DNA of 44,570 nt from positions 1 through 44,570 of the forward strand of contig JAUNGV010000002.1 in the NCBI GenBank assembly GCA_030524225.1. Direction: 5' to 3'. Made by a program: the position numbers and the translations under genes. The first letter of the stretch is position 1. Every line of letters begins with the position of its first letter. Positions 48 to 25,587 of the stretch are shown piece by piece. Below the pieces are notes generated by a model. It was not told where the DNA came from. It saw nothing but the letters and a program-made list of their open reading frames with translations, and searched no databases. This stretch comes from Eubacteriales bacterium (lineage in GTDB: Bacteria > Bacillota > Clostridia > Lachnospirales > Lachnospiraceae).

Positions 48-1367
48 ATGAAACCATTGGGGGATTACAGTCATATCAAGGGATTTAATTACACGGCGAG
101 CTATGCAAAGAACGATTATGAGTTCTGGAGCGACTATCGCCATGATGTGGTGGAGCGGGAGATGGGATATGCGCAGCGCATCGGTTTTAACAGCGCGCGT
201 CTCTTTACGCCGCACCGATGCTATGTGGAGAACAGGGAGCGTTTTCTCGCAAATCTGCGGGACTTCGTGCAGACGGCGTGGGCGCACGGGATTTCCAGCA
301 GTCCGATTGTGTACTTTGGCCGGGAGTTCTATCCGGATTTCCAACCGGACGAAGGGGAGGCTGCGGCGGGGCTGACGGATATGCTGCGGCCGGAGAATTA
401 CCCGCTTTCCTGCGCGTATTTTGACGATTTGTACGAAGCGGTCGGACAGGAGCCGGGCCTGATCTTCTGGGATGTGTCGAACGAGCCGGGGTATCACACA
501 CCGAACTTTGTGACCTTCCATGAGCAGGAGCCCGCTTTTCGCAGGGAGATGGATCCCGTGCCGGAGGACATGGAGGCGTTTCGGGAGAAGCAGGAGAGCG
601 TGTGGCGTTTTCTGCATCATGTGATCGCGCATATGAGAGAGAAGGATCCGGTCAATGCCATCGGGATCGGCAACACCTACGCCTACGAGATCGAGCCGAG
701 CGGTACAGCGCCGCTGGTGGATATTCTGATCTATCATGATTATTTCGAGACGAGGAAGCGGGTGCGGGACGTCTGTGACATGATGAAGGCGCTGGGAGAG
801 AAGTACGGCAAGCCTGTCATCAACAACGAGACCGGCTGTCTGTGCCGGGCCAATCCCTATGACATGGAACTGGAAATTCTGCAGGAGTACGGCTTCGGCT
901 ATTATCTCTTCGAGCTGATGGTCGGGCAGGATATGTGGAGTCAGGTGCACGGTCTGGTCTATCCGGACGGTACGATCCGGGATCCCTCCGCGATTGCGGC
1001 GGTGCTGGGATTCTTCCGCAACAGGGGACCGTCACGGATCCCGACTCTTGTGAACCGGGAGGGAAGCGCGAACCGCGCGATTGCACTGGCGACGCGGGCG
1101 ATCGCGGAGGCGGGTTCAGGGCTGTACTGCGAGCGGCAGAAGGAAAAGACAGAGGGGTTGCTGGAGGCGGCGGAGTATATCGCCAACCTGCTGGAGGCCG
1201 GAGAGCACGTCCCGATGCACAGTCTTCCGACCGCGCGGATCGCCGGCTACCGCAGGCAGGAGACTCCCGACAGGGAGGAAATTATCGGCTGGCTCTATGA
1301 GCTGGTGAGGACGCTGCAGAAGGCGTGCCGCATCACAGGCGAGAGCGGAACCGAGAAGAGAGTGTGA
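48..1367 (+). CDS. Clan GH-A glycoside hydrolase (GH5-like, cytosolic)
   Basis: This 439-residue protein has the layout of a clan GH-A (beta/alpha)8 retaining glycosidase. The probable acid/base is Glu146 in DVSNEPG and the probable nucleophile is Glu261 in INNETGC. The N-terminal GFNY...RIGFNSARLF pattern resembles COG3934/GH5-like enzymes often annotated as cellulase or 1,4-beta-xylanase. There is no signal peptide, so it should act in the cytosol on imported oligosaccharides. The last ~110 residues are rich in charged helices and were not recognised. The ATG follows GGGAGGAAG at normal spacing. Only 47 bases precede it in the window, so it may be an internal operon gene. The GH43-like gene follows after an 85-bp gap. 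The fold class is fairly secure. The exact family and substrate are inferred from neighbours and remain open. Confidence 0.75.
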   Translation: MKPLGDYSHIKGFNYTASYAKNDYEFWSDYRHDVVEREMGYAQRIGFNSARLFTPHRCYVENRERFLANLRDFVQTAWAHGISSSPIVYFGREFYPDFQPDEGEAAAGLTDMLRPENYPLSCAYFDDLYEAVGQEPGLIFWDVSNEPGYHTPNFVTFHEQEPAFRREMDPVPEDMEAFREKQESVWRFLHHVIAHMREKDPVNAIGIGNTYAYEIEPSGTAPLVDILIYHDYFETRKRVRDVCDMMKALGEKYGKPVINNETGCLCRANPYDMELEILQEYGFGYYLFELMVGQDMWSQVHGLVYPDGTIRDPSAIAAVLGFFRNRGPSRIPTLVNREGSANRAIALATRAIAEAGSGLYCERQKEKTEGLLEAAEYIANLLEAGEHVPMHSLPTARIAGYRRQETPDREEIIGWLYELVRTLQKACRITGESGTEKRV

Positions 1368-1452
1368 TCTGCCGGGGATTCCGGGCAGGAGAATCAGACA
1401 GGTACAATCAGACAGGGGCAAACAGAGAAGGGAAGAAACGGGGAGAGCTGAC

Positions 1453-3228
1453 ATGGAACGGTATGCAGAAAAACAGAAGTATCTGATGATTTATACCAGA
1501 GAGCCGGTCGCAGGGGAATATCCGGCGGCGCTGGCGGGCAGTATTCATCTGGCGGTGAGCGGAGACGGGAGGCATTTTGAACCGCTGAACAGAAATTACG
1601 GGATTCTTTTTGCCCGTGGAAAGGTGCGGGAGGACGACACGATCGCGCCGAAGGCGCTGCGGAATCCGCGCTGTTTCCGAATGGCGGACGGGCGATTCGC
1701 GATCACGGCGACCCGGACACAGGAGGACGGATCGCCGGACACAGAAACGGACATCACTTTGCTCTGGACGACGGAGGATTTCATCACGTTCCGGGAAGAA
1801 GAGGCCGAAATGCTTGACGGGCTGAAACCGGATGGACGAGGCGACTTTGACAGAGAAATAGTTCCGGAGGCGCTGACAGCGGTTTCCAGTGGTTTGGCAG
1901 ACTGTAGCGTGACGGAGGTTTTTGCGACCTCATCATCCTGTGGCGCGGCGCAGTGCAGCGTGATCGCTCTCGAGGCTTCGGTCTGCGACAGGGCGGCTCT
2001 GCACTGGGGCGGAATCATCTGCGTGGGTGTGCGGGTTCCGGCGCAGATCACAGCGTCGTTGGCAGATGAGGTGCGGTCCGTGGAGGCACAGGCGGTGTAT
2101 TCCGACGGCTCGACGGCGGCAAAGCCGGTGGACTGGGAGCTGGATGGCGTGTCGTTTGACAGAGAGGGAACGTATCGGATCCGGGGACGTGTGCGCGGGG
2201 CGCAGTACCGTTTTCCGCTGGCCCGGGGCTACGGAGATCCTGTGATTTTCCCGTGGGAGGGGCGCTGGTATTTCATCGCCACGAACGACAACCTGAACGA
2301 CATCGGTCTGTATCTCAGAGTAGCGGATGAGGTGCCGGGACTGTTCGCGGAAGGCATACAGGAGCATCTGTTTCTGGGGCTGGACGAGGAAAAGGGGTTC
2401 GTGCAGACGTTCTGGGCGCCAGAGTTCCATGTGATCGGCGGGGAGCTTTATATTCTGTTCGCGGTCAGCGGGACGAAGTGGGGGCCGCAGTGCCATCTGA
2501 TGAAATTAAAGAAAGGGGCGAGTCTGACCGATCCGGAGGGATGGGAGCAGCCGGTGCGGGTGTGCCGCAGGGACGGAAGCCCGCTGTCCGAAGACGGGAT
2601 CACACTGGATATGACCTATCTGAATGCGGCGGGGCGCTCTTACTTTGTCTGGTCGTACCGGCGGAACATCGGAACAGCGATGGATACCGGATCGATGCTT
2701 TTTATCGCGGCGGCAGATGAGAGGGAGCCGTGGAAGCTCGCCGGGGATCCGGTGCTGCTCTCCCGTCCGCTTTACGGCTGGGAGAACATGGAGGGAACGA
2801 TCAACAACGAGGGACCGAACGCTTTTGTCTGCGGCGGAAAGGTGTATCTGACGTATTCCGGCGGTGCGGCGAACGGCTACAGCTATGTGGTGGGGCTGCT
2901 GACGGCAGACGAGACGGCGGATCTGACGGATCCGGCGGTGTGGCGCAAGAGAGAGACGCCGGTTCTGTCCTACTATTCGGTGCCGGGGGAGTTCGGGCCG
3001 GGACACAATTCCTTTTTCACCGACGAGAGGAGGGAGCTGATGATCGCGTACCACGGGGAGACGGCGATCGACAGCGATCTGCGCAGCGACGGGATCCGGC
3101 GTGTTCATTTTGACATTCACGGCGAACCGGTCTTTGACCTGTCCGCGGAGCGTGATCTGGATCCGGCTCTGGCACAGGTGGAACTGTGTGTGCAGGTGAC
3201 AGAGACGCGAACCGCAAAACGCGGGTGA
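1453..3228 (+). CDS. GH43-like glycosidase with internal Ig-like domain (paralogue of 12180-14000)
   Basis: The 591-residue protein has three parts. Residues ~1-190 look like a divergent, incomplete beta-propeller segment (LMIYTREP, SIHLAVS, NYGILFARG). Residues ~193-250 resemble a bacterial Ig-like group 4 domain (AVYSDGS...VDWELDGVSFDREGTYRIRG). Residues ~258-570 are a GH43-type five-bladed propeller. Candidate inverting residues are Asp262 (GYGDPVIF), Asp386 (ITLDMT) and Glu453 (NNEGPNAF). Family knowledge suggests alpha-L-arabinofuranosidase or beta-xylosidase activity. The absence of a signal peptide implies a cytosolic enzyme. It lies between the GH-A gene and the oligoxylanase gene. 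A second protein with the same unusual order is encoded at 12180-14000. Sugar specificity cannot be read from sequence. Confidence 0.8.
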   Translation: MERYAEKQKYLMIYTREPVAGEYPAALAGSIHLAVSGDGRHFEPLNRNYGILFARGKVREDDTIAPKALRNPRCFRMADGRFAITATRTQEDGSPDTETDITLLWTTEDFITFREEEAEMLDGLKPDGRGDFDREIVPEALTAVSSGLADCSVTEVFATSSSCGAAQCSVIALEASVCDRAALHWGGIICVGVRVPAQITASLADEVRSVEAQAVYSDGSTAAKPVDWELDGVSFDREGTYRIRGRVRGAQYRFPLARGYGDPVIFPWEGRWYFIATNDNLNDIGLYLRVADEVPGLFAEGIQEHLFLGLDEEKGFVQTFWAPEFHVIGGELYILFAVSGTKWGPQCHLMKLKKGASLTDPEGWEQPVRVCRRDGSPLSEDGITLDMTYLNAAGRSYFVWSYRRNIGTAMDTGSMLFIAAADEREPWKLAGDPVLLSRPLYGWENMEGTINNEGPNAFVCGGKVYLTYSGGAANGYSYVVGLLTADETADLTDPAVWRKRETPVLSYYSVPGEFGPGHNSFFTDERRELMIAYHGETAIDSDLRSDGIRRVHFDIHGEPVFDLSAERDLDPALAQVELCVQVTETRTAKRG

Positions 3229-3362
3229 CAAAGAAAACGGGAAGAGCAGAGACTGCCATACAGCGGCAGACCGCGGGGCGTGAAACCGCCCGCAGGCGAA
3301 GAACTGCGATGAAAGAAGCGAGTGGAGGGGCTGCAGACAGGACTGCGGCGGAAAGGAATAAA

Positions 3363-4529
3363 ATGGGGGCGTATCAGACGGGAGTGTATCCGAATCTCTT
3401 CGCGGAGATTGGAAAGAGCGAGCAGGAGATCGGGAGAAAAATAGAAGAGATTGTACAGACTTTTTTCTACGGGGATGAGCAGGAGCGGATCTACCGGGAA
3501 GCGGATCCTGATATGGGGTATCTGGTCGATACGGGAAATAACGACGTCAGAACCGAGGGAATGTCCTACGGCATGATGCTGTGCGTGCAGCTGGGAATGA
3601 GGGAGGAATTTGACCGGATCTGGAAGTGGGCAAGGACGTATATGTGGATGAGCGAGGGGGAAAACGAGGGATATTTTGCATGGTCCTGCCGCCTTGACGG
3701 GGCAAAGAACGCGTACGGCCCCGCGCCGGACGGGGAGGAATTCTTTGCGATGGCGCTGTTTTTTGCCTCGAAGCGCTGGGGAGACGGGGAGGGACTCTAT
3801 GATTATGCCGGACAGGCGAGAGAGATTCTGCGCGCCTGCCTCCACAAGGGGGAGAACGGACGTCCGGGGCTTCCGATGTGGAACCGGGAGAACCATCAGA
3901 TTCTGTTCATTCCGGAGGTCTCGTTCACGGATCCCTCTTACCATCTGCCTCATTTTTATGAATTATTTGCGCAGTGGGCGTACGAGGAGGACAGGCCGTT
4001 CTGGAAGAAGGCGGCCGGGGCGAGCCGGGCGTATCTGGCGAAGGCGTGCCATTCTGTGACGGGCTTAAGTCCTGAGTACGGGGAATTTGACGGTGCTCCG
4101 GTGACGGTGACGGAGCCATGGGGCGTGCACAGCTGGTTCTACAGCGACGCGTACCGGACGGCCGCCAATATCGGACTGGACTGCGCGTGGTTCGGACGAA
4201 GCGGGGAGCAGTGCGGCGCGCCGCTTCGCATGATGCGGTTCTTCGGCACGGATCTGGAAGCGGTGCGGTGCGTGCGGGAGATCGACGGCACGCCGTTGGA
4301 GAAACCGGTGCTCCATCCGCTGGGACTGCTGGCGGCGACGGCGCAGGGGGCGCTGAGCGTGGAGAAGAGGGACGTGCAGAATTCTGACAGCGACTGGAAT
4401 CTGGCGCTGCGATGGGTGCGGTGGCTGTGGGAGCAGCCGCTTCGCCGGGGTGAGAGAAGATATTACGACAACTGCCTGTATCTGTTCGCCCTGCTGGCGC
4501 TGAGCGGACGCTACCGGATGTATCTGTAA
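3363..4529 (+). CDS. GH8 reducing-end xylose-releasing exo-oligoxylanase (Rex)
   Basis: This predicted cytosolic GH8 inverting enzyme (EC 3.2.1.156 type) releases xylose from the reducing end of xylo-oligosaccharides. From memory the sequence follows Bacillus halodurans Rex closely: DTGNNDVRTEGMSYGMM with catalytic acid Glu65, APDGEEFFAMALFFASKRWGD, PSYHLPHFYELFA, and YSDAYRTAANIGLD with catalytic base Asp262. At 388 residues it matches the length I recall for that enzyme. The ATG at 3363 is chosen because AAAGGA ends a few bases upstream and the protein begins where the family does; the frame stays open to 3186 without homology. This gene is the best evidence that the locus handles xylan fragments. 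Product confidence is high. Confidence 0.93.
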   Translation: MGAYQTGVYPNLFAEIGKSEQEIGRKIEEIVQTFFYGDEQERIYREADPDMGYLVDTGNNDVRTEGMSYGMMLCVQLGMREEFDRIWKWARTYMWMSEGENEGYFAWSCRLDGAKNAYGPAPDGEEFFAMALFFASKRWGDGEGLYDYAGQAREILRACLHKGENGRPGLPMWNRENHQILFIPEVSFTDPSYHLPHFYELFAQWAYEEDRPFWKKAAGASRAYLAKACHSVTGLSPEYGEFDGAPVTVTEPWGVHSWFYSDAYRTAANIGLDCAWFGRSGEQCGAPLRMMRFFGTDLEAVRCVREIDGTPLEKPVLHPLGLLAATAQGALSVEKRDVQNSDSDWNLALRWVRWLWEQPLRRGERRYYDNCLYLFALLALSGRYRMYL

Positions 4530-4660
4530 GGGTGCGCAGTGCGCTCTGTCACAGAGATGGCAGGAGGCAGATGGTCAGGATGACATCAGCGCTGTTCCGG
4601 TATGTGACAGAGTGTAAACGGTGCGGGGAGCGCAGGGAGCGTCCCGGAAAGGAGTGTTCT

Positions 4661-6334
4661 ATGAAGCTTGTTCAGAATCCGATTATCGGCGCGGATATGC
4701 CGGACCCGGATCTGCTGCGGGTGGGAGATACCTACTACATGGTTTCCACGACGATGTTTTATATGCCGGGAGGGCCCATTCTGCGCTCTCGGGATCTGTG
4801 CCGCTGGGAGATTGTTTCCTATATTTTCGAGACGCTGGAGGATGACGAGGCCTACCATCTGCAGAACGGGAAGAACGCCTACGGCAAGGGGCAGTGGGCG
4901 ACGAGCCTGGCGCATCACAACGGGCGTTTCTACGCCTGCTTTGTCAGCTGGGACGAGGGGAAAACGTATCTTTATTCCTCGGACGATATTGAGAAAAGCG
5001 GATGGGAGCGGATCGAGATCCCGGAGGTCTTTCACGATATGTCCTTTCTCTTCTGGAAGGATAGGGCGTATCTCGTTTACGGAAACGGAGAGATTGGAAT
5101 CGTGGAGCTGGAGCCGGACCTGAGCGGCCTGCGGCAGGGCGGTCTGCGCCGTCTGCTGTTCAAGGCGCCTGCAGACGGAATGCGCCTGCGCTGTGAGGGC
5201 TGCCGGGCCGTGGTGCGGGACGGGATGATTTACCTGCTCTTTATCGACTGGCCGCAGCAGGGACTGCGCCGGGTGGTCTGCTACCGGAGCGGGCAGCCGG
5301 AGGGACCCTACGAGTGCCGTGTACTGCTCCATGACGATGGGGGAATGGCGGGACACGGCGTGGCGCAGGGAACCCTGATACAGGGAGAGGACGGCGAGTG
5401 GTACGGGATGTTTTTCCAGGACAGGGGCGCGGTGGGACGGATTCCGTATCTGATGCCGGTCGTATGGGAAGAGGGCTGGCCGGTGCCGGGGACAGAAGAG
5501 GAGACGGGCTCGGGGAGCGACGCGATTCAGAAGGATGGAAAGCGGATTGCGCCGGTGCGCTGGGAAATGCCGGAGCAGCCGGGAGAGATAAAGTCGGGAG
5601 AAACTCAGTCGGGAGGAACGCAGACGGAGGAAGACAGGGAGGCGCATACTCCGGAGTGTGCGGCGCACAGAGAGAATGCAGAGGGAAAGCAGCATGAGAA
5701 CGTGGGGTATCCGGTCTGCGGCAGCGATTCGTTTGCGCGAGGGGAGGATTCGCTCCCGCTGTTCTGGCAGTGGAATCACAATCCGGATCCCTCCTGCTGG
5801 TCGCTGACCAGGCGGCCGGGGTGGCTGCGCCTGACAGCCGGGCAGCCGGCGGATTCTCTGCTGCGGGCCCGGAACACACTGACGCAGAGAACCATGGAAC
5901 CGGGCTGTGTCTGCGAGGTGACACTGGACGTTTCCGGCATGAAAGAAGGGGATTATGCGGGACTGTGCGCCCTGCAGGGGCGCTACGGGCAGATCGGAGC
6001 GGCAGTGCGCGGCGGACGGACGTGGATCCGGACGGTGATCCGCAGTCAGAATGAAGAACGGGCGTCAGACAGGGAAGAGTGGCTTGGGTTTGACGGGACA
6101 AAGCTCTTCCTGCGGGTGATCTTCGACTACCGGGATGGAGTGGATCTGGCCTCCTTCTACTGGAAAAGCGAGACGGAAGGGTCATGGCAGAAACTGGGGG
6201 AGACGCTGCCGATGATCTATACGCTTGATGTATTCGTGGGGTACCGCATTGGCCTCTTCTGTTATTCGCCGGAGAAAACCGGCGGGTACGCGGATTTCAG
6301 GGAATTTACGATGCGGGACATCGGGGAGAGCTGA
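4661..6334 (+). CDS. GH43 beta-xylosidase/alpha-L-arabinofuranosidase with C-terminal beta-sandwich
   Basis: The protein has 557 residues. An N-terminal five-bladed propeller carries the GH43 triad: Asp15 in MPDPDLLR (base), Asp126 in FHDMSFLF (pKa modulator) and Glu179 in CEGCRAV (acid). A C-terminal lectin-like GH43_C2 sandwich begins near LFWQWNHNPDPSCWSL, as in many xylan beta-xylosidases. Between them lies an unusually long, charged Glu/Gly/Gln/Thr-rich linker of roughly 80-90 residues. The ATG at 4661 is preceded by AAAGGAG and matches the usual family start (MKLVQNPII); 43 in-frame codons upstream have no homology. There is no signal peptide. It is the last gene before the lacI-type regulator. 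Xylosidase versus arabinofuranosidase activity is unresolved. Confidence 0.87.
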   Translation: MKLVQNPIIGADMPDPDLLRVGDTYYMVSTTMFYMPGGPILRSRDLCRWEIVSYIFETLEDDEAYHLQNGKNAYGKGQWATSLAHHNGRFYACFVSWDEGKTYLYSSDDIEKSGWERIEIPEVFHDMSFLFWKDRAYLVYGNGEIGIVELEPDLSGLRQGGLRRLLFKAPADGMRLRCEGCRAVVRDGMIYLLFIDWPQQGLRRVVCYRSGQPEGPYECRVLLHDDGGMAGHGVAQGTLIQGEDGEWYGMFFQDRGAVGRIPYLMPVVWEEGWPVPGTEEETGSGSDAIQKDGKRIAPVRWEMPEQPGEIKSGETQSGGTQTEEDREAHTPECAAHRENAEGKQHENVGYPVCGSDSFARGEDSLPLFWQWNHNPDPSCWSLTRRPGWLRLTAGQPADSLLRARNTLTQRTMEPGCVCEVTLDVSGMKEGDYAGLCALQGRYGQIGAAVRGGRTWIRTVIRSQNEERASDREEWLGFDGTKLFLRVIFDYRDGVDLASFYWKSETEGSWQKLGETLPMIYTLDVFVGYRIGLFCYSPEKTGGYADFREFTMRDIGES

Positions 6335-6410: not shown

Positions 6411-6585
6411 GCGTTTATCAATTTACTAAACAGATAAATAACGCACCGATTACGCGGAATTCTGCGTAGTGTATCGTTTGACAAATAACGCGGACGAGAT
6501 ATACGGCAGAGAGGGCGCGGCAGATGGTGCGGGGACAGTGTGCGGAAGCTTCTTATGGGGAGAAGGCACGGAAAGGCGGCCGGAA

Positions 6586-7692
6586 ATGGTGAGGCTGAAG
6601 GAGATTGCGGATGAGTGCGGCGTGTCCGCGACAACCGTATCGAATATTCTGAATGGCAAGGCGAGGGCGAGCGAGGAGACCCGTCAGCGGGTGCTGGAGG
6701 TGGTGCGCCGCAGGGGGTACCAGCCGAACTATATTGCCCAGGGACTGCGCAACCAGAAGACCAGGATGATCGGGATCATTGCGGAGGATATTGTACAGTT
6801 TACGACGCCGCCGGTGATTGAGAGCATTATGGAACACTGTGAGAAACGGGGATACCGGACGATTATGCAGAATCTTCGTCTTTATGCGCGATGGTCGGAC
6901 CGGTGGTTTCATGATGAGGAGGCGTACCGGTCGGTTCTGTTGCCCGCGCTGCAGGAGCTCAATTCCATCCGGGTGGACGGTGTGATCTGCGTGGCAGGTC
7001 ACGAGCGGGTGATCCGTTTTCAGAAAGGGGATCTCTCGGTGCCGTTGGTCATGGCCTATTCCTATGCGGAGGGGATTCCGGCGGTGTCCGTTGTGATCGA
7101 CGAGGAGCGGGGCGGTTACGAGATGATGCGCTACCTGCTCTCGATGGGGCACCGGAGAATCGGAATTATCGCGGGGCGGGAGGACAATATTCACGCGGTC
7201 AAACGTCTGGTGGGAATTCAGAAGGCGATGTTCGAGGCGCAGGTTCCGTACAATCCGGGATGGGTGCGGTACGGAAACTGGGACAGGGAGTCGGGATACC
7301 GGCTGGCGAAGGAACTGCTACAGGAGGATATTACCGCGATTCTGGCCATGACGGATACTATGGCGGGAGGGGTATACGACTGCATGGAGGAACTGGGGCT
7401 TCGGGCCGGGCAGGATATTGCGGTGACCGGCTACAACAATACTGAGCTGAGCGAATATGTACATCCCCGGCTTACGACGATGACGCTCCCCCTCTCGGAG
7501 ATCGGATACCGGTCTGCGGAAACGCTGCTGAATCAGCTGGAGGCGGGAGAGGAAACAGGAAGCGGGGAGGAACAAACGGAGACAGACAGAGCGCAGAAAG
7601 ACTGGACAGGGGGAAAGGAGATCCTGATCCCGGGTTCTCTCGTGATCCGGAATTCGGTGCACCGCATGGAGAGTCAGGCAGGCGGGACGTGA
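6586..7692 (+). CDS. LacI-family transcriptional regulator
   Basis: A sugar-responsive DNA-binding repressor of 368 residues. Residues 2-23 (VRLKEIADECGVSATTVSNILNG) form the LacI helix-turn-helix. A hinge helix region follows near YQPNYIAQGLR, then a periplasmic-binding-like effector domain (IGIIAEDI, VDGVICVAGH, GHRRIGIIAG, AILAMTDTMAGGVYDCMEELG, VTGYNN). The ATG at 6586 is chosen because the family start MVRLKEIA begins there with GAAAGG upstream. A 26-residue low-complexity stretch (EAGEETGSGEEQTETD...) sits near the C-terminus and is unusual. The gene has its own promoter and terminator, and lies between the xylan enzyme genes and the transporter. It probably controls one or both; the dyads at 7955-7968 and 7985-7996 are candidate targets. 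Confidence 0.93.
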   Translation: MVRLKEIADECGVSATTVSNILNGKARASEETRQRVLEVVRRRGYQPNYIAQGLRNQKTRMIGIIAEDIVQFTTPPVIESIMEHCEKRGYRTIMQNLRLYARWSDRWFHDEEAYRSVLLPALQELNSIRVDGVICVAGHERVIRFQKGDLSVPLVMAYSYAEGIPAVSVVIDEERGGYEMMRYLLSMGHRRIGIIAGREDNIHAVKRLVGIQKAMFEAQVPYNPGWVRYGNWDRESGYRLAKELLQEDITAILAMTDTMAGGVYDCMEELGLRAGQDIAVTGYNNTELSEYVHPRLTTMTLPLSEIGYRSAETLLNQLEAGEETGSGEEQTETDRAQKDWTGGKEILIPGSLVIRNSVHRMESQAGGT

Positions 7693-7940: not shown

Positions 7941-7969
7941 TTGACACAAATATGGTTTAAGGGTAAACT
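7941..7969 (+). promoter_or_regulatory. Promoter of the ABC sugar importer operon
   Basis: TTGACA (7941-7946) is a perfect -35 box. TAAACT (7964-7969) is spaced by exactly 17 bp and serves as a -10. The -10 is embedded in a dyad (7955-7968), so a bound repressor would block it directly. Confidence 0.75.
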
Positions 7970-7996
7970 ACAAACAGAAATTGATTTAACGATAAA
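7955..7996 (+). promoter_or_regulatory. Two tandem operator-like dyads (GTTTA-N4-TAAAC type)
   Basis: Dyad 1 is GTTTA-AGGG-TAAAC (7955-7968), overlapping the -10 box. Dyad 2 is TTTA-ACGA-TAAA (7985-7996), near the expected transcription start. Their centres are 29 bp apart, close to three helical turns, which would put two repressor dimers on one DNA face. The LacI-type protein encoded just upstream is the natural candidate binder, by inference only. Confidence 0.55.
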
Positions 7997-8059
7997 CCTA
8001 CTCAAAAACCAAGGGAAACTAATGCAAAACGAGATGGAAATGAACTGCGGAGGTTTTGC

Positions 8060-8113
8060 ATGGGAAAGAGCAGGGAAATCGGAGAGAGAAAGAAAGGCAG
8101 GGGGCCGGGATGA
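8060..8113 (+). CDS. Possible 17-residue leader peptide coupled to the permease
   Basis: ATG at 8060 follows GCGGAGG with 6-bp spacing, the best ribosome site in this leader. The frame encodes MGKSREIGERKKGRGPG and ends in TGA at 8111-8113, overlapping the permease ATG as ATGA. The arrangement suggests translational coupling. The peptide itself is very basic and matches nothing I know. It could be chance: the site might instead serve a TTG permease start at 8056, but that spacing would be only 2 bp. Confidence 0.35.
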   Translation: MGKSREIGERKKGRGPG

Positions 8114-9030: not shown

Positions 9031-9120
9031 ATATATAACAGATTCCGGAGAAAGACACCGGGCGAAAGAGAATGCGGCCTGTGGCTCCTGTCGGGATAAA
9101 CGGTGGAAAGGGTGAAGAAA

Positions 9121-12058: not shown

Positions 12059-12105
12059 AAGCCCGAACAGCTTTGGAACGACAGGGAAAGCTGTTCGGGC
12101 TTTCT
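12059..12105 (+). terminator. Intrinsic terminator after the binding-protein gene
   Basis: A 14-bp perfect stem (12061-12074 with 12087-12100, GCCCGAACAGCTTT) extends by two A-T pairs, has a 12-nt loop, and ends in a short T-rich tail (TTTCT). The weak tail may permit read-through into the next glycosidase run, for which no clear separate promoter was seen. Confidence 0.85.
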
Positions 12106-14024: not shown

Positions 14025-14124
14025 GATTGAAAAATAAGCTCGATAGCTTATTTTTCAATCCCGAGATTTGTGCCGGAGCGTCACAAATCTCGATTATGGC
14101 AGACGCAAATCGAATATTTGCGTC
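14025..14124 (+). repeat. Cluster of three perfect stem-loops in a glycosidase leader
   Basis: Hairpin 1: 14025-14040 with 14045-14060, 16 bp, loop CGAT. Hairpin 2: 14062-14072 (CGAGATTTGTG) with 14082-14092, 11 bp, loop CCGGAGCGT. Hairpin 3: 14102-14110 (GACGCAAAT) with 14116-14124, 9 bp. The hairpin 2 loop bases CCGGAGCG (14073-14080) are the exact complement of CGCTCCGG (14141-14148) beside the next gene's ribosome site. Hairpin 1 has an A5...T5 closing stem and could also terminate transcription. Confidence 0.8.
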
Positions 14125-14140
14125 GCCCCGTCGCGAGAAT

Positions 14141-14165
14141 CGCTCCGGAATGGAGATTAAAAATG
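14141..14165 (+). promoter_or_regulatory. Repeated translation-initiation box, copy 1
   Basis: CGCTCCGGAATGGAG followed by ATTAAAA and the ATG. The same 25 bases, start codon included, recur at 18969-18993 in front of the GH36 gene. The GGAATGGAG part is the ribosome site, and CGCTCCGG can pair with the loop at 14073-14080. Confidence 0.7.
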
Positions 14166-17410: not shown

Positions 17411-18901
17411 GTGAAATTGACAGTGGCAAAATTATTTCTTAATTCCGGCAGGAAGTACGGAACGATCAACAGAAATTTATACGGGCAGTTTGCGGAGCAT
17501 CTGGGCAGCTGCATCTACAACGGAATTTATGTGGGGGAGCGCAGCGATATTCCGAACGAGGACGGGATCCGTCTGGATGTCGTCGAGGCGCTGCGGCATA
17601 TTCGTGTGCCGGTGATCCGGTGGCCGGGTGGGAGCTTTTCGGAGAACTATCATTGGAGGGACGCGGTGGGGCCGAAACAGGAGCGCCGTCCCATCGTCAA
17701 TTCGAGTTGGGGTGATGTGGTGGAGGACAATTCCTTCGGAACGCACGAGTTCTTCCGCTTCTGCGAGATGGTCGGGGCGGCACCCTATATTGCGGCCAAT
17801 GTCACGACCGGCACGGTGCGGGAACTTGAGGAATGGATCAGCTATATCACGGACGCGGGGGATTCGGCGATGGCGCGGCTGCGCCGGGAGAACGGACGGG
17901 AAGAACCGTGGCGGCTTCCCTACGTGGGGATCGGCAATGAGAACTGGAGCATGCGGCCGGAATTCTACGCGGATCGCTTCCACCTGTTTTCCTCCGGTAT
18001 TCACAGCAGGCAGCAAATAGAGAGAATCGCGTGCGGGCCGGACGGGGCGAACTATGACTGGACGGACGCGCTGATGCAGCAGGCGAAGCCCTCGCTGATG
18101 AATGGGCTCTCTCTTCATTATTATACGATGCCGGGCTACTATAAGACGGACGAGTATCCGCAGGACGAAAAGCGTCCGGCCAGAGATTTTGACCGGGAGG
18201 GATATTACCGGACGCTGCGCAGAGCCCTGTATATGGAAACGCTGATCCGGCAGCACTGCGCTCTGATGGAGCGGCGGGACCCGGAGGGCAGAATCGGGCT
18301 GGTGGTCGATGAGTGGGGCACATGGCATCAGCCGGAGCCGGGGACGAATCCTTCCTTCCTCTATCAGCAGAACACGATGCGGGACGCGATTGTCGCGGGA
18401 CTGACGCTGAATATTTTCAACCGCTGCAGCGAGCGGGTGCGGATGGCGAATATTGCGCAGGCGGTCAATGTGCTGCAGGCGATGGTGCTGACGCGGGAAC
18501 AGGAGATGGTGCTGACGCCGACGTATCACGTCTTCGATCTCTATCGGGCTCATCAGGATGCCAGACGCATCGAGAGCTACATCCAGCAGGATCTGACCGG
18601 GCCGCAGGATGCGCAGGTTCCGGCGCTGAGCGTCAGCGCTTCCGAGGACGAACAGGGTGTGCTCCACGCGACGCTGGTCAATACGGACGCTGATGAGAGC
18701 AGGGCGGTGCAGTGCCTGCTGGAGGGCAGAGCGTACAGTTCCGTGAAAATCCGCTACCTGAGCGGAGCGATTGGGGCGTATAATGATTTTGACAGAAAGG
18801 ATGCGGTGCAGATCCGCGAGATGACACCGCCGGTGATCGAAGACAATACCTTTGCCGTCGAGGTGCCGGCCTGCTGCGTGATGGAGCTGACGCTGGAATA
18901 A
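17411..18901 (+). CDS. GH51 alpha-L-arabinofuranosidase
   Basis: A retaining cytosolic arabinofuranosidase of 496 residues acting on alpha-1,2/1,3/1,5-arabinosyl groups of arabinoxylo- or arabino-oligosaccharides. The acid/base is Glu177 in GIGNENW and the nucleophile is Glu301 in VVDEWGTW. Typical motifs include LYGQFAEHLG, VIRWPGGSFSENYHW and LSLHYYT. The C-terminal beta domain ends with FAVEVPACCVMELTLE. It starts at GTG 17411; the nearest good ribosome site (CAGGAG, 17388-17393) is rather far (about 17 bp), so GTG 17423 is an alternative. The preceding 136-bp gap is GC-rich and shows no gene. Confidence 0.95.
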   Translation: MKLTVAKLFLNSGRKYGTINRNLYGQFAEHLGSCIYNGIYVGERSDIPNEDGIRLDVVEALRHIRVPVIRWPGGSFSENYHWRDAVGPKQERRPIVNSSWGDVVEDNSFGTHEFFRFCEMVGAAPYIAANVTTGTVRELEEWISYITDAGDSAMARLRRENGREEPWRLPYVGIGNENWSMRPEFYADRFHLFSSGIHSRQQIERIACGPDGANYDWTDALMQQAKPSLMNGLSLHYYTMPGYYKTDEYPQDEKRPARDFDREGYYRTLRRALYMETLIRQHCALMERRDPEGRIGLVVDEWGTWHQPEPGTNPSFLYQQNTMRDAIVAGLTLNIFNRCSERVRMANIAQAVNVLQAMVLTREQEMVLTPTYHVFDLYRAHQDARRIESYIQQDLTGPQDAQVPALSVSASEDEQGVLHATLVNTDADESRAVQCLLEGRAYSSVKIRYLSGAIGAYNDFDRKDAVQIREMTPPVIEDNTFAVEVPACCVMELTLE

Positions 18902-18957
18902 ACAGCGGCGGCCGCGGATCTTTGACCGCAGTGCTGCAAACAGGCGGCGGAAGAAGG

Positions 18958-18993
18958 GGAGCAAAACGCGCTCCGGAATGGAGATTAAAAATG
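18958..18993 (+). promoter_or_regulatory. Local hairpin and repeated translation-initiation box, copy 2
   Basis: GGAGC (18958-18962) pairs with GCTCC (18970-18974) across a 7-nt loop directly before GGAATGGAG. Bases 18969-18993 are identical to 14141-14165. The hairpin ends where the ribosome site begins. Confidence 0.65.
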
Positions 18994-20832
18994 GAACTGT
19001 ATGTGGAACTGAAACTGCGGGGAGATGAGGCAAACGGCGGCTTTTCCAACGGGCTGACTATGTGCGGGAGCCAGTCGGTCAGGGAACTGGAGCTGGTGGA
19101 GGACGCGGAGCGGGTACGGCGCTACCGGGACGGACGGGGACACTGCGTGAGCGTGGCGACGCGGCAGATCGGGGAGGCGCAGGAACTCGTCACAACATTT
19201 GAAAATCAGGGAACAGAGCCTGTTGTGCTCGACATGCTCTCCTCCTTTGCGATTCGGGATATTCCGGCGGACAGGATTCACAGGATGCAGTCGTTCTGGA
19301 GTGCGGAAGGGAAGCCGCGGACGGAGACGGTGGAGGAACTGGGCCTGGAGCCTTCGTGGGCCGGTTTTGGCCTGCGGTCGGAGAAATTCGGAAATCTCGG
19401 CTCCATGCCGGTCCGGAAGTATTTTCCCTTCGTCGTGCTGGAGGACAGCAGGGAGGGGCGCTTCGTGGGAATCCAGCTCTACGCGCCCTCTTCGTGGCAG
19501 ATTGAACTTCTGTGTGAAAAGGATGAGAACCTCGCGGTGGTCGGAGGAATTGCCGATCATGACTATGGACACTGGGGCAGGGAGGTTGCGCCGGGCGAAC
19601 GGTTCAGCGCGCCGCGTGCTCTTCTGGCACAGGGTGATTCTCTCTATGAAGTCTGCCATAAGCTGACGGCGGCACAGCAGCCGGAGATTTCCGCCAGGGA
19701 TCAGGAAATGGGAATCCTGTTTAACGAGTACTGCACGACATGGGGCAGTCCGAGTCTTGAGAATGTCAGGAAGATCTGCGACAGAATAAAGGGCCGGGGG
19801 ATTCAGTTCATGGTGATCGATGCGGGCTGGTACGGACAGACCGGGAACTGGGGTCACTATATCGGCGACTGGGACGTCAATACGGAGGTCTTTCCGGGCG
19901 GGCTGAAAGCGGCGGCGGACTATATCAGGAGCTGTGGCATGATTCCCGGACTGTGGTTCGAGCTGGAGTCGGTCGGACGGGCGTCGCAGTACTGGAATGC
20001 GACGGAACATCTGCTGCAAAAGGATGGTGTTCCGATCACGGTGGGCGACCGGCGTTTCTGGGACATGGAAGACCCGTGGGTCGTGGATTATCTGTCGCGG
20101 AAGGTGATCGGTCAGTTAAAGGAGGCCGGTTTCGGCTACGTCAAGGTGGATTACAACGAGACGATCGGCGTCGGATGCGACGGCACGGAGAGTCTTGGAG
20201 AGGGACTGCGCCGCAAGGTGAAGGCGACGCAGGCGTTCTTTGCCAGAATGAAGGAGGAGATTCCTGATCTGGTGTTCGAACTGTGCAGCAGCGGCGGTCA
20301 CCGTCTGGAGCCGTCGTTTCTGGAACTCGCCTCGCAGGCCAGCTTTTCCGACGCGCACGAGACGGTCACGATTCCGCTGATCGCCGCCAACCTGCACAGG
20401 GTGATGCAGCCGCGGCAGAGTCAGATCTGGGCGGTTCTGCGGGCGGCGGACAGTCTCGAGCGCATTCAGTATTCGATGGTCAACACGTTTCTCGGAAGGA
20501 TGTGTCTGAGCGGCGATATTTACGATCTCTCCGACAGTCAGTGGCAGGCGGTGGAGGAGGGAATGGACTTTTACCGGCAGGCGGCGGATATCATCCGGGA
20601 CGGCGAGACGGTTTCGTGCCTCTGCAATGTGCGCAGCTACGCGAAACCCTGCGGTGAGCAGGTACTGGTGCGGCGGCTCGGCGCGCGCCTTCTGGTGATT
20701 GCGCACCGGTTCGGAGATTCGCAGGAACCGGAGATGCAGATCCTGCAGGGCAAACGGATCCTGTGCGAATACGGGACTCTGACGGGGGATTTTACCGCAA
20801 AGGCATGGATCTGCGAGGAGACGGCGGAGTAA
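18991..20832 (+). CDS. GH36 alpha-galactosidase
   Basis: A 613-residue retaining GH36 enzyme expected to remove terminal alpha-D-galactose. The N-terminal beta-supersandwich covers about residues 1-235. The barrel follows: FNEYCTTWGSPSLENV, VIDAGWYGQTGNWGHYIGDW, PGLWFELESVG, nucleophile Asp387 in YVKVDYNE, ELCSSGGHRLEPS, and acid/base Asp454 in FSDAHE. It is shorter than the ~700-residue raffinose-type enzymes. ATG at 18991 is set by GGAATGGAG and the start of homology. No signal peptide. In this context it would strip alpha-galactose decorations from imported xylan or gum fragments; a raffinose or melibiose role is possible but does not fit its neighbours. Confidence 0.92.
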   Translation: MELYVELKLRGDEANGGFSNGLTMCGSQSVRELELVEDAERVRRYRDGRGHCVSVATRQIGEAQELVTTFENQGTEPVVLDMLSSFAIRDIPADRIHRMQSFWSAEGKPRTETVEELGLEPSWAGFGLRSEKFGNLGSMPVRKYFPFVVLEDSREGRFVGIQLYAPSSWQIELLCEKDENLAVVGGIADHDYGHWGREVAPGERFSAPRALLAQGDSLYEVCHKLTAAQQPEISARDQEMGILFNEYCTTWGSPSLENVRKICDRIKGRGIQFMVIDAGWYGQTGNWGHYIGDWDVNTEVFPGGLKAAADYIRSCGMIPGLWFELESVGRASQYWNATEHLLQKDGVPITVGDRRFWDMEDPWVVDYLSRKVIGQLKEAGFGYVKVDYNETIGVGCDGTESLGEGLRRKVKATQAFFARMKEEIPDLVFELCSSGGHRLEPSFLELASQASFSDAHETVTIPLIAANLHRVMQPRQSQIWAVLRAADSLERIQYSMVNTFLGRMCLSGDIYDLSDSQWQAVEEGMDFYRQAADIIRDGETVSCLCNVRSYAKPCGEQVLVRRLGARLLVIAHRFGDSQEPEMQILQGKRILCEYGTLTGDFTAKAWICEETAE

Positions 20833-20958: not shown

Positions 20959-23328
20959 ATGTTATCGGTATGGCATAGAAAAAGCAGGGAGATCACCAGA
21001 GCGTATCGGGACGGCGGCGCGCTGTTTCTGGAAGCGGAAGGAGGCAGAATCCGGCTGGCTCCGCAGACGGAGTGCTGCGTACGGATCTCTTATACGGAGG
21101 GAGATTCCTTCGGAGAGGGGCAGGGCAGTCATCTGAATACGGCGGGCTCCGACTGCGCATGGAGCTGGCGGGAGACAGAGCGGGCAGTCGTGCTGGAGAC
21201 GGGCAGGATCCGGCTGCGCGTCTCCAGAGAGGAGGGAGCAATCCGGTATGAAAAGAGGGACGGCTCCCTCCTGCTCATGGAGCAGGCATATGACAGCAAG
21301 CGGACGGAGGCGTATCAATCGTTCCGCACGGTCGTAGACGACCGGACGGAAGTGGAGGAGGTGGAGACGCCGGATGGAGTCAAACGACGGCTCAGAGGGG
21401 CGGACAAGGTATTCGACAGGATGCTGTGCCGGACGAGACTGCGGCTTGCGTTCTCGGAGGATGAGCATCTGTACGGACTGGGGCAGGCGGAGGAGGGAGC
21501 GGGCGATCTGCGCCACACCGTGCAGTATCTGCATCAGGCCAATCTGAAAATTGCGATTCCCTTCCTGCTTTCGGATCGCGGGTACGGGCTTCTGCTCTCG
21601 ACGCAGGGAACCGCTGTGTTCAGCGATACGCAGTTTGGCTCCTATCTCTATACGGAGGCGGACGAATATCTTGATTATTTTTTTATCGAGGGGAAACCGG
21701 TCGAGGCTGTGAGAGAATTCCGGCGGCTTTCGGGGCGGGCGGCGATGCTGCCGAAATGGGCGTTCGGCTATATCCAGTCGCAGGAGCGCTATGAAACGGC
21801 GCAGGAGCTGGTGGACACTGTACAGGAATTCCGTAAAAGAAAGCTGGGCATAGACGCCATTGTGCTGGACTGGCAGTACTGGAAAGAAGGAATGTGGGGG
21901 CAGAAGGAATTCGACAGGGACAGGTTTCCGGATCCTGCGGCGATGACACGCCTGCTCCATGCACAGAACGTCCGCCTGCTGATTTCCGTGTGGCCGAATA
22001 TGACGGCCGGGAGCGGGAATTACAGGGAATTCGCAGAGAGCGGAAAGCTCCTTCCGGGGAGTGAGATTTACGATGCCTTCGATCAGGAGGCGAGAGATCT
22101 GTACTGGAAACAGCTGGAGAGGGAGCTGTTCCGGGCGGGGACGGACGGGTGGTGGTGCGATTCCAGCGAACCCCTCACACCGGAATGGGAGCGGATAGTG
22201 AAGCCGGAGCCGGGAGAGATGTATCATGCTTACAGAGAGACGGCGGCAGACTTCATGCCCGCGGAACGGGCGAACGCTTACGGGATGTACCATGCGCAGG
22301 GCGTCTATGAAGGGCAGCGGGCGTGCACAGAAGAAAAGAGAGTGGTCAATCTGACCAGAAGCGGCTGGGCGGGAAGCCAGAAATACGGCACGATTCTGTG
22401 GTCGGGCGATACGTGCGCACGGTGGGAGACCCTGCGCAGTCAGGTGGTGGCAGGGCTGCAGTTCTGCGCCAGCGGGATGCCGTACTGGACGCTCGATATC
22501 GGCGCGTTTTTTGTAAAAAGCGGAGAGCAGTGGTTCTGGGACGGACATTATGATGGAGGTGCGGCGGATCCGGCTTACCGGGAACTGTATGTGAGGTGGT
22601 TTCAGTACGGCGTATTCCTGCCGGTATTCCGCAGCCACGGAACGGACTGCCGCAGAGAACCGTGGAATTTCGGAGAGGAAACACAGCCGTTTTATGAGGC
22701 GATCAAAGCGTCCATCGCGTTGAGATACCGCTTGATCGCCTATATTTACTCTCTGGCGGGAGAGGTATGGCGGGAGCACGGGACGATGATGCGGCCTCTT
22801 GTTTTTGATTTTCCGGAAGATAAGAGGGCGGCCGGTATCATGGATACCTATCTGTTCGGACCGTCCCTCCTGATCTGCCCGGTTACGGAGAGCATGTATC
22901 CGGATGGACAGGTGAGGGAGGAAACGATCGGGAACAGAAAGAGCAGACGCAGAGTCTACCTACCGGCCGGGACGCAGTGGTACGATTTCTATACGGAAGA
23001 GAAATACGAAGGCGGCCAGGAAATCATCGCGGAGGCGGGGATTGACAGAATCCCGGTCTATGTGCGCGCGGGGGCTGTTCTTCCGCTCATGGAGGCGGGG
23101 GAGAGTACGGCGCAGATGGAAGGCGGCGGGATCACGCTGCAGGCGTACGCGGGGGCGGACGGAGGATTTACGCTGTACGAGGACGCGGGAGACGGGTACG
23201 GCTATGAGAGAGGGGAATACTGCCTGACGGAGCTTTCCTATCAGGATGAGAAGCGGGAAGTGACATGGGAGACGACGGGAATGGAGCGGTTCCGCAGGGG
23301 CGCATTTCGTGTCCGGATTGTGGAGTGA
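20959..23328 (+). CDS. GH31 alpha-xylosidase (or alpha-glucosidase)
   Basis: A 789-residue retaining GH31 enzyme. The N-terminal sandwich domain has LYGLGQAEEGAGDLR. The barrel carries nucleophile Asp401 in DGWWCDSSEP and acid/base Asp484 in LWSGDTCARWETL. The substrate loops include IVLDWQYWKEGMWG, FCASGMPYWTLDIGAF and FRSHGTDCRREPW. The DGWWCDSSEP form resembles alpha-xylosidases of the Xyl31A/XylS group rather than starch-type alpha-glucosidases. C-terminal sandwich domains follow. The ATG has GGAGGGGAG upstream. No signal peptide. Alpha-xylose occurs on xyloglucan and on complex cereal arabinoxylan; the neighbours favour the latter. Confidence 0.88.
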   Translation: MLSVWHRKSREITRAYRDGGALFLEAEGGRIRLAPQTECCVRISYTEGDSFGEGQGSHLNTAGSDCAWSWRETERAVVLETGRIRLRVSREEGAIRYEKRDGSLLLMEQAYDSKRTEAYQSFRTVVDDRTEVEEVETPDGVKRRLRGADKVFDRMLCRTRLRLAFSEDEHLYGLGQAEEGAGDLRHTVQYLHQANLKIAIPFLLSDRGYGLLLSTQGTAVFSDTQFGSYLYTEADEYLDYFFIEGKPVEAVREFRRLSGRAAMLPKWAFGYIQSQERYETAQELVDTVQEFRKRKLGIDAIVLDWQYWKEGMWGQKEFDRDRFPDPAAMTRLLHAQNVRLLISVWPNMTAGSGNYREFAESGKLLPGSEIYDAFDQEARDLYWKQLERELFRAGTDGWWCDSSEPLTPEWERIVKPEPGEMYHAYRETAADFMPAERANAYGMYHAQGVYEGQRACTEEKRVVNLTRSGWAGSQKYGTILWSGDTCARWETLRSQVVAGLQFCASGMPYWTLDIGAFFVKSGEQWFWDGHYDGGAADPAYRELYVRWFQYGVFLPVFRSHGTDCRREPWNFGEETQPFYEAIKASIALRYRLIAYIYSLAGEVWREHGTMMRPLVFDFPEDKRAAGIMDTYLFGPSLLICPVTESMYPDGQVREETIGNRKSRRRVYLPAGTQWYDFYTEEKYEGGQEIIAEAGIDRIPVYVRAGAVLPLMEAGESTAQMEGGGITLQAYAGADGGFTLYEDAGDGYGYERGEYCLTELSYQDEKREVTWETTGMERFRRGAFRVRIVE

Positions 23329-23352
23329 AGAACGCTCCGATAGGGAGGAGTT

Positions 23353-25587
23353 ATGAGAAATCGGCTATGGTATCGGAAACCGGCGGGGTGCTGGGAGGAG
23401 GCATTGCCGGTCGGGAACGGCAGAATAGGAGCGATGGTGGGCGCAAATCCGGTCTGCGAGACGGTGTGGCTCAATGAGGACAGCATCTGGAGCGGAAAAC
23501 AGCTTGACCGGATCAATCCGTCAGCCAGAGAATTCCTTCCGGAAATTCGCCGTCTCCTGCGGGCGGGAAGAATTCCGGAGGCGGAGCGTCTCGCTCTCTG
23601 TGCGCTGTCCGGAACTCCCAATTCCCAGCGCGCCTATGAGACAGCGGGAGAGTTGTATCTGGGGTTCCGGATGGAGGGAGAGATCAGAGAGTACCGCCGG
23701 GAACTGGATCTGGACAGAGGCATTGCCGGAGCCGTTTACCGGATCGGAGAGACGGAGTACCGGCAGGAGTGGATCGCTTCTGCGCCGGATCAGGTATTGG
23801 CTCTGCATCTGACCGCAGAGGGGAAAGGGAAGCTTTCTTTTGACTGCCGCCTCGGGCGCTGTCATAACAGGACGGACGAGGTGACGGCGAATGGGGAGAA
23901 TGTCGTTTCCTTTGTGGTGGAGAGCGGCGGGGGGATTTCTTTTACCGTTTCGCTGCGTGTGGAGACGGTCGGCGGGAGGATTCGGACGATCGGCGAGCAT
24001 ATCGCCGTGGAAGAGGCACGGGAGGCCACTGTGCTCGTGGCGATCGAGACGAGCTTCCGGCATGAGAACTACAGGGAAGAGGCGGAGCGCCGTCTGCAGC
24101 GGGCGGCGGCAAAATCGTGGGAGGAACTCCGGCAGGCGCATGCGCGGGAGTATGAACCTCTGTTCCAGCGGGTGGCGCTTTCTCTTGGTGAGGAGAACGG
24201 AGAGGCGGAGCCGGATACGCAGGAGCGTCTGGAACGCATGAGAAGCGGGGAGGATGACGCGGCGCTGCTGGCGCTGTATTTCCAGTACGGACGCTACCTG
24301 CTGCTCTCTTCGAGCCGGGGAGACTGCCTTCCGGCGAATCTGCAGGGAATCTGGAACTCCAGCCTCACGCCTCCGTGGGACAGCAAGTATACGATCAATA
24401 TCAATGCGGAGATGAACTACTGGCTGGCGGAGAGCGGGAGTCTGCCGGAGTGCCATATTCCCTATTTCCGGCATCTGCGCAGAGTGATGGAAAACGGAAA
24501 AAAGACCGCGGCGCAGATGTACGGCTGCCGCGGTTCCGTGGCGCATCACAACACGGATATTTACGGGGACAGCGCGCCGCAGGATCACTATATTCCGGCG
24601 AGCTTTTGGGTCATGGGCGAAGCGTGGCTGGCGACGCACATCTGGGAACACTATCTGTATACGGGGGACGGCGAATTCCTGACGGAATATCTGGATATCG
24701 TGGAGGAGTGTATTCGCTTTTTTGCGGATTTTCTGATCGAGAATGACAGGGGAGAGCTCGTGACCTCTCCGTCGGTCTCTCCGGAGAATACCTATATCAT
24801 GCCGGATGGAACGAAGGGATGCCTGTGCGAGGGGGCAGCCATGGATATCGAAATCCTCCGGGAACTGCTGTGCGGCTATCTGCGGGCTGCGGAGCACGGG
24901 TTCGGGAATCCGGAGGTCAGGGAACGGGCGGAGGAAATCTATGGCAGGCTGCCCGCGTTAAAAATAGGGAAGCACGGACAGATTCAGGAATGGATGGAGG
25001 ATTATGAGGAGGCGGAGCCGGGACATCGCCATATTTCACAGTTATACGCCCTGTATCCCGGAACGATGCTGAACTGGCGCGATACCCCGGAGTGGATGGA
25101 GGCGGCAAAGGCGACTTTAAACCGGCGGCTCTCTTACGGCGGCGGCCACACGGGATGGTCGCGGGCATGGATCATCGGGCTGTGGGCGCGGCTCGGAGAG
25201 GGAGAAGCGGCGTATGAGAATTTCCGCGCGCTGCTCTCACAGAGCACATTCCCGAATCTGTTCGACAATCATCCGATGGGAGAGGGGTTCGTGTTCCAGA
25301 TCGACGGCAATTTCGGGGCGTCAGCGGCGCTGGCAGAGATGCTGGCGCAGAGCCATGGGGGAAGAATTGTTCTTCTTCCGGCTCTGCCGCATCAGTTAAA
25401 GGATGGCAGAGTCTCCGGCCTCTCTTTGCGCGGACAGATTCGGCTGGATATGGAATGGAGAGAGGGAAAGGTTCTCCGGTATTCGCTGTATTCGCCGAAG
25501 GAGCAGAGCGTTTTTGTGACGGTCAATGGCTGCGAAGAGGAAATTCTGCTGCAGGGAAAAGAACAGTACAGGAGGGAGAAAAGCTGA
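23353..25587 (+). CDS. GH95 alpha-L-fucosidase or alpha-L-galactosidase
   Basis: A 744-residue inverting GH95 enzyme. An N-terminal beta domain ([24 protein letters not shown]) precedes an (alpha/alpha)6 barrel. From family knowledge of the Bifidobacterium enzyme AfcA, the matching residues are Asn349 and Asn351 ([11 protein letters not shown]), Glu478 (SVSPENTY) and Asp651 ([10 protein letters not shown]). The residue two before the first Asn is Thr347, where AfcA has His as I recall. Thr there has been linked to alpha-L-galactosidase preference, so L-galactose is a real possibility. No signal peptide. It ends the glycosidase run, 29 bp from the convergent TetR gene with no obvious terminator between. 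Confidence 0.9.

Follow-up and report, generated by a model that had tools for sequence, protein, structure and literature searches.

A LacI-linked import locus of a Lachnospiraceae bacterium that likely serves branched arabinoxylan oligosaccharides

Which glycan is handled by a bacterial locus that gathers eleven enzymes devoid of evident export signals around a single oligosaccharide importer? The question is raised by positions 48-25587 of a DNA stretch of 44,570 bases (the window), with which a contig of 93,011 bases begins. The contig comes from a Eubacteriales bacterium (probably a Lachnospiraceae from the gut; genome of 2.9 Mb in 127 contigs, 80.9% complete). The locus, on the plus strand throughout, comprises eleven enzyme open reading frames (ORFs), a LacI-family regulator, two permeases and one lipoprotein-type binding protein; ten of the enzymes match Pfam glycosidase families, namely GH43 (four proteins), GH8, GH39, GH51, GH36/melibiase, GH31 and GH95. 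Judging from gene content and related loci, we consider it likely that LacI controls the locus and that its products first import branched arabinoxylan oligosaccharides and then degrade them inside the cell. These oligosaccharides are the best-supported substrate, and as far as sequence comparison can carry such an assignment it is well supported; corn-type specificity appears plausible. The first-pass annotation had described eleven glycosidases without signal peptide around one importer. The arrangement stands, and export signals are absent according to N-terminal hydropathy, used here rather than a dedicated predictor: the highest values over 17 residues are low in the eleven enzymes (-0.20 to 1.08), compared with 2.09 to 2.62 in the permeases and binding protein, and we therefore regard the enzymes as lacking signal peptides. 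The count of glycosidases in known families has to be lowered to ten, since the first enzyme, orf1, is without a family match.

The case for xylan starts with the enzymes that would shorten the backbone. The GH8 protein (3363-4529; the ORF opens at 3186, but the ATG at 3363 is the more likely start) scored best with Rex8A (6srd, 455 bits) in a search of solved structures, as opposed to 301 and 283 bits with the best entries not named Rex or xylanase Y (6g00, which we take to be an endo-xylanase, and 22gt, labelled 'cellulase') and 134 bits with the endo-xylanase 1h12. It also aligns with PbRex8A in the Leu-His-Pro loop that follows the +1 subsite. In PbRex8A this loop is described as obstructing the site past +1, although BeRex8A is described as a Rex without it (PMC8417218). 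The GH39 protein (15691-17274; PF01229, 393 bits) reached 502 bits with the beta-xylosidase 1w91 versus 32 with iduronidase. Of the four GH43 proteins, one is of the beta-xylosidase type with a GH43_C2 domain (4661-6334; PF17851 118 bits, PF04616 103 bits; ORF opening at 4532, a ribosome site preceding the ATG at 4661), and GH43c (14163-15593; ORF opening at 14070) is of the arabinofuranosidase/xylosidase type, with 452 bits to 9no3 (TerARA). The paralogues GH43a (1453-3228; PF04616 73 bits, PF07532 23.5 bits) and GH43b (12180-14000; PF04616 101 bits) both carry an internal Big_4 domain (GH43-Big_4), and D289, D413 and E477 of GH43b are invariant across 7 aligned rows. A GH51 protein of the alpha-L-arabinofuranosidase type (17411-18901; PF06964 149 bits) completes this group. 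The earlier proposal that Rex (GH8), GH39 and GH43 point to xylan is thus upheld by the Rex loop and the GH39 scores, and also by the neighbours of related importers and a shared operator-like motif, as detailed below.

The importer is made up of permease 1 (8056-9030; PF00528), permease 2 (9103-10056; PF00528) and the binding protein (10185-11954; PF01547, with an N-terminal hydrophobic stretch ahead of LTGC); an ATPase gene is not part of the cluster. Searching 397 family genomes, host included, returned 217 relatives of the binding protein at E <= 0.001, and for the ten loci that scored best outside the host we read neighbourhoods of 18 to 39 kb. Xylan-set genes were present in five of the seven loci whose binding protein is 46-56% identical: carboxylesterase+SGNH and GH43-Big_4 in G430; GH43-Big_4 and GH95 in G321; two GH43-Big_4, GH39, GH120 and carboxylesterase in G381; two GH43c matches, one at 70% and a distant one at 24%, in G405; and GH120, GH43c, GH31, GH43-Big_4 and GH51 in G438. 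None of the three loci at 36-39% identity (G046, G337, G054) had a match to GH43-Big_4, GH43c, GH39, GH120 or carboxylesterase, G054 holding distant GH29-like (32%) and GH31-like (23%) genes. Importers of this type are thus associated with xylan genes. Between the binding-protein gene and GH43b lies a 15-bp hairpin (12060-12101; folding energy of the 86-nt stretch -34.2 kcal/mol, z -4.2), which perhaps functions in transcript processing or attenuation and perhaps leads to more binding protein than enzyme.

Control by the LacI-family protein (6586-7692; PF13377, PF00356; ORF opening at 6469) is suggested by a LacI-operator-like motif, GTWWANCGNTWWAC, that was found by comparing promoters by eye and derived from two sites of the same-genus genome G280 and one window site. 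At up to one mismatch the window holds 5 matches versus 0.33 expected. Three of these are intergenic, one before lacI (6413-6426, one mismatch) and two (7955-7968 and 7984-7997) in the importer promoter (TTGACA-17-TAAACT; 7941-7997). The same-genus locus (L022) has two exact matches, ahead of its importer and ahead of GH31, and L021 has no match. Among the seven held-out loci, the motif stands 20-53 bases before permease 1 in four (exact in G430, G321 and G438, with one mismatch in G004), including all three that have a LacI match (G430, G321, G004); in G417 a single match lies at the end of permease 2, and L087 holds three matches. Importer promoters thus share a motif to which the LacI protein would bind. 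Promoter-like sites as such were no commoner in the promoter scan than in shuffles. A scan for 18-base palindromes was rejected as a route to the operator: it turned up a single window site, inside coding sequence, and none in G280.

A second comparison departed from GH43b. Seven GH43-Big_4 queries were run against genome_contigs, and the best 80 of at least 575 confirmed stretches (3.1 to 21.9 kb each) were surveyed, counting genes at 90 bits or more. Organism labels in this set included Lachnospiraceae, Eisenbergiella, Acetatifactor, Clostridium, Ruminiclostridium, Oscillospiraceae, Paenibacillus, Cohnella and one Levilactobacillus; its closest relatives (66%) belong to Eisenbergiella, in three assemblies of which one is labelled chicken. 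Of the 80 loci, 43 had one or more of GH43-C2 type, GH39, GH8, GH120, GH43c and carboxylesterase (GH43-C2 type in 22, GH39 in 14, carboxylesterase in 10, GH8 and GH43c in 9 each). GH31 was found in 8 (four close at 43-56%, four distant at 27-31%), GH51 in 6-7, GH95 in 4 and GH29 in 3. Within the host's genus, 9 of 62 genomes, host included, had a GH43b match, the full-length form being present outside the host in G250 and G280. The G280 contig combines GH31, GH51, GH43c, LacI, importer, GH120 (94 bits with the xylosidase 3vst), carboxylesterase+SGNH, GH43-Big_4 and a GH29-type gene; the GH29 Pfam match comes from the G250 copy, the G280 copy being split into two ORFs in the ORF calling used.

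These neighbourhoods bear on an alternative that we regard as very improbable, namely a locus for pectic arabinan, arabinogalactan-protein or mixed side chains, in which the GH43-Big_4 proteins would be exo-1,5-arabinofuranosidases and GH36 a beta-L-arabinopyranosidase. GH43b obtained its best PDB scores, 141-154 bits, with 3k1u, 5m8b, 9nxj and 3akf, the last an exo-1,5-arabinofuranosidase, and ten earlier characterised GH43_26 enzymes are described as acting on arabino-oligosaccharides or arabinan (PMC12493170); likewise, the best NCBIfam model for GH36 is that of beta-L-arabinopyranosidase, reached with 128 bits, far under its cut-off of 1100. However, Rex, the beta-xylosidase-type GH39 and the GH43-C2 type do not fit such substrates, and 33 of the best 80 GH43b loci contain GH39, GH8, GH120 or the GH43-C2 type, GH51 occurring in 7, of which 4 have xylan companions. 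Pectic arabinan as the main substrate was rejected on the grounds of this misfit and of the GH43b-locus companions.

More ambiguous are the three enzymes that close the locus and would remove side-chain sugars. For GH31 (20959-23328), the top three solved relatives are all named alpha-xylosidase (7kmp 460, 5jou 442 and 2xvg 410 bits, the fourth entry falling to 260 and the remainder to 199 or less); the closest kin reside in xylan-type loci, but a preference for xylan or xyloglucan is not readable from the sequence. In a tree of 13 proteins, with a long-branch warning on other rows, the window copy groups with those of L088 and L089 (support 100/99). GH95 (23353-25587; YTININ, SPE and QIDGN motifs) scored 513 bits with 7kmq, a fucosidase, and 486 bits with 4ufc, an alpha-L-galactosidase; the Thr of YTININ is common to both activities and is described as not revealing GH95 specificity (PMC8245568), so the window protein is assignable by sequence to neither. 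In a tree of 7 proteins it groups with a copy from G207 (100/100). By these groupings, the closest kin of GH31 lie in xylan-type loci and those of GH95 in the G207 module. The divergent GH36 (18991-20832; PF02065 112 bits; ORF opening at 18922) may be an alpha-galactosidase or a beta-L-arabinopyranosidase. At E <= 1e-40 it has matches in 70 of the 397 family genomes, host included, and belongs to a subgroup of the host and eight others (48-61% identity, 614-648 residues), followed by homologues of about 700 residues; classical GH36 proteins, among them a second host gene on contig C110, are about 30% identical. Among the GH36 neighbourhoods, a related importer lies near GH36 in G089, and G326 and G133, which carry the longer homologues, have distant importer genes only, G133 with further GH36 copies. 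In G236, a GH43c+carboxylesterase ORF adjoins GH36; this 932-residue ORF (L186 4793-7591) has both matches in one frame and is possibly a fused debranching enzyme. As a separate observation, an identical 25-base leader spans the start codons of GH43c and GH36 in the window (14141-14165 and 18969-18993), with a CTCC/GGAG inverted repeat around the ribosome site.

The G207 module raises the possibility of a composite locus, in which importer, Rex, GH39, GH51 and GH43 would serve ordinary arabinoxylan oligosaccharides and GH36-GH31-GH95 would form a second module, joined to the first, that targets a different decorated glycan (fucosylated xyloglucan, one resembling rhamnogalacturonan II, or other). 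In G207, of another genus, GH36, GH95 and GH31 stand in a row (L187 9835-16306; the order in the window is GH36-GH31-GH95) downstream of a different importer of their own, with GH2 and GH78-type genes nearby, and the window GH95 is the very protein that groups with this copy; moreover, the nearest solved GH31 and GH95 (7kmp and 7kmq) are enzymes of a xyloglucan locus (PMC8245568), and the best 80 GH43b loci are without a match to GH36 or orf1. On the other hand, the closest GH31 relatives (55-56%) adjoin GH43-Big_4 pairs in two of these loci, L088 (plus GH39 and carboxylesterase) and L089; the same-genus locus has GTWWANCGNTWWAC before GH31, though that site helped define the motif; two loci, L109 of Paenibacillus soyae and L142 of an uncultured Lachnospiraceae, combine GH95 with both the GH43b and the GH43-C2 type; and a GH115 gene is found in G207 about 21 kb upstream of the module. 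Weighing both sides, we consider a composite locus rather unlikely.

The same solved GH31 and GH95 relatives could speak for a locus devoted to xyloglucan itself, in which an alpha-xylosidase, a fucosidase and arabinofuranosidases would act on imported xyloglucan fragments; to our knowledge, Rex and GH39 have no role in xyloglucan breakdown. No GH1, GH2, GH3, GH35 or GH42 was among the Pfam matches of the 30 ORFs scanned. Import of xyloglucan fragments by a Gram-positive bacterium is known, but the cluster described for it includes a GH3 beta-glucosidase and a GH42 beta-galactosidase (PMC4780118). Xyloglucan as the main substrate was rejected, as these beta-glucosidase and beta-galactosidase families are not among the matches of the 30 ORFs, and we hold this reading to be highly improbable. 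The first-pass annotation had interpreted GH51/GH43, GH36, GH31 and GH95 as removing the decorations of corn-type xylan. This remains plausible but is weakened by the ambiguity of GH95, the divergence of GH36 and the occurrence of GH36-GH95-GH31 elsewhere without xylan-backbone genes.

The enzyme at the left edge, orf1 (48-1367), yielded no Pfam match even at E=10 and no NCBIfam match. Three remote relatives provide a handle: PF00150 is matched by two of them, with 43.7 bits in one and 19.9 bits, below the cut-off, in the other, and PF00331 by the third over 38 residues. E146, within NEP, and E261 are invariant in 4 sequences at places expected of clan A. On account of these matches and the two invariant Glu residues, which would be the acid/base and the nucleophile, respectively, we call orf1 clan-A-like (GH5-like), the GH5 family model itself not being reached; it is a candidate for a new glycosidase family. 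Relatives were found in 4 of 250 family genomes with the single sequence and in 10 of 397 with a profile, host included in both; a pattern scan of genome_contigs returned none. Those in G107, G152 and G331 adjoin CUT1-type importers, and the 19.5 kb around the closest one (47%, G438:C8) held no match to the window gene set; the neighbourhoods of orf1 relatives point to no substrate.

Whether the locus is complete is a related issue. The contig starts 47 bases ahead of orf1, so that anything upstream is cut off, and the locus may continue leftward. The absence of an endo-xylanase or glucuronidase, noted in the first reading, holds for the locus as seen within this limit. The genome search suggested with it was run: GH10, GH11, GH67 and GH115 were not found in the host genome at 80.9% completeness, and one GH30, on contig C71, was judged by reading to be glucosylceramidase-like and unsecreted, leaving no clear candidate for either activity. 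The GH30 region (L032 1354-2709 and 2761-3996) shows no evident signal peptide and lies beside CUT1-like permease ORFs; an opposite-strand gene nearby is presumably GH127-like. The L-fucose isomerase C-terminal model has 4 matches in the host, 3 above the cut-off and none inside the locus. To the right, the locus is flanked by genes for an HXXEE protein, a MatE transporter and an MBOAT protein, beyond which housekeeping genes follow (YchF, Lgt, MraZ, MraW, a penicillin-binding protein and glycosyl transferase 4). At 29238-31962, the MBOAT acyltransferase gene precedes one whose product has SGNH and DUF1574 matches below threshold, the two resembling an O-acylation pair, and a Clostripain-family (C11) peptidase of 754 residues (35756-38020) adjoins the housekeeping genes.

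Several observations weigh against the arabinoxylan assignment. Besides the exo-1,5-arabinofuranosidase among the nearest solved structures of GH43b and the missing GH36 and orf1 in the best 80 GH43b loci, the 39 kb of the G207 module hold no match to the window's xylan-backbone enzymes, and five of the eight closest GH36 neighbourhoods (ten neighbourhoods were read) are without any gene of the window set. Two of the seven close importer loci (G417, G004) lack any xylan-set gene, and 37 of the best 80 GH43b loci, many of them short, have none of the xylan companions sought; these two sets of loci were picked by importer and by GH43b similarity, respectively, and the counts describe loci so selected. 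With respect to regulation, the three sites from which GTWWANCGNTWWAC was drawn are for that reason not independent, two of the five window matches lie in coding sequence (one across the end of permease 2, one in the binding-protein gene), and three of the seven held-out importers (G381, G405, G417) have no match before permease 1. Finally, no esterase and no glucuronidase lies within 48-25587, the upstream side of which is cut by the contig end, and the search with the OB_MalK model for a shared ATPase came back empty, which we do not take as absence.

For the favoured arabinoxylan reading, the following scheme is inferred from these comparisons as regards substrates, activities, the sugars of the side chains and the sequence in which they are attacked; the same applies to whatever part orf1 may play. 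Xylan would be cut outside the cell by other organisms or by the products of a distant locus, and the branched fragments would be imported by the binding protein and two permeases, energized by an ATPase presumably encoded elsewhere. In the cytosol, GH31, GH95 and GH36 would strip terminal side-chain sugars and GH51 and the GH43 enzymes would take off arabinose, and Rex at the reducing end and GH39 and GH43-C2 at the non-reducing end would break the backbone down to xylose. If branched fragments are indeed imported whole and stripped inside, little would be passed on to neighbouring cells, with consequences for how a gut community is nourished by cereal fibre; corn-type arabinoxylan is described as among the xylans most resistant to breakdown (PMC4491172). 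The locus is also a compact source of candidate debranching enzymes, with orf1 as a candidate new family.

Among known systems, the closest parallels are the xua cluster of Ruminiclostridium cellulolyticum and PUL-XylL of Bacteroides ovatus. The xua cluster has an ABC importer specific, through its binding protein, for arabinoxylo-oligosaccharides, no ATPase gene, cytoplasmic GH51, GH43_10, GH8 and GH39 enzymes that act on arabinoxylo-dextrins, and two esterases, xuaH not being present in every xua cluster (PMC9675976). The window shares the importer without ATPase gene, the grouping of GH51, GH43, GH8 and GH39, and the lack of signal peptides. It differs in having LacI in place of a two-component system, in adding GH31, GH36, GH95, three more GH43 (compared at the family level) and orf1, and in lacking an esterase within 48-25587, an esterase-type gene being present in the same-genus locus. 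In R. cellulolyticum, a xyloglucan importer cluster likewise combines an ABC importer and a cytoplasmic GH31 with an ATPase encoded outside the cluster, but has GH3 to attack the glucan backbone and GH42 to remove beta-galactose where the window has Rex, GH39 and GH43 (PMC4780118). Corn-fibre enzymes of strain LL1355 include GH31, GH95 (alpha-L-galactosidase), GH43 and GH120, which were tested, and a proposed GH51; their locus tags (Table 3) are scattered, and the available portions of that report describe no single importer-linked locus (PMC7176698). PUL-XylL of Bacteroides ovatus adds GH31, GH97 and GH95 for corn xylan, and the two xylan PULs of that species hold GH10, GH30, GH67 and GH115 members (PMC4491172). 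As in PUL-XylL, predicted GH43 xylan enzymes of the window are accompanied by GH95, by a GH31 of the alpha-xylosidase type and by a member of an alpha-galactosidase family, which is GH97 in B. ovatus and GH36 in the window; unlike the surface and periplasmic enzymes of the Gram-negative system, those of the window are predicted to be cytoplasmic behind an ABC importer (PMC4491172). In the portions of the open-licence literature at hand, we found no description of a Gram-positive, importer-linked arabinoxylan locus with GH31 and GH95. A bolder, tentative version of our reading would see here a Gram-positive, wholly intracellular counterpart of PUL-XylL, importing corn-type fragments with their alpha-D-xylose, alpha-D-galactose and L-galactose caps and stripping them in the cytosol; orf1 would then found an unnamed clan-A glycosidase family and cut one of the side-chain linkages. 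By analogy, the window looks like xua plus a cytoplasmic version of PUL-XylL, and the locus represents a known import-and-degrade strategy in unusually rich form.

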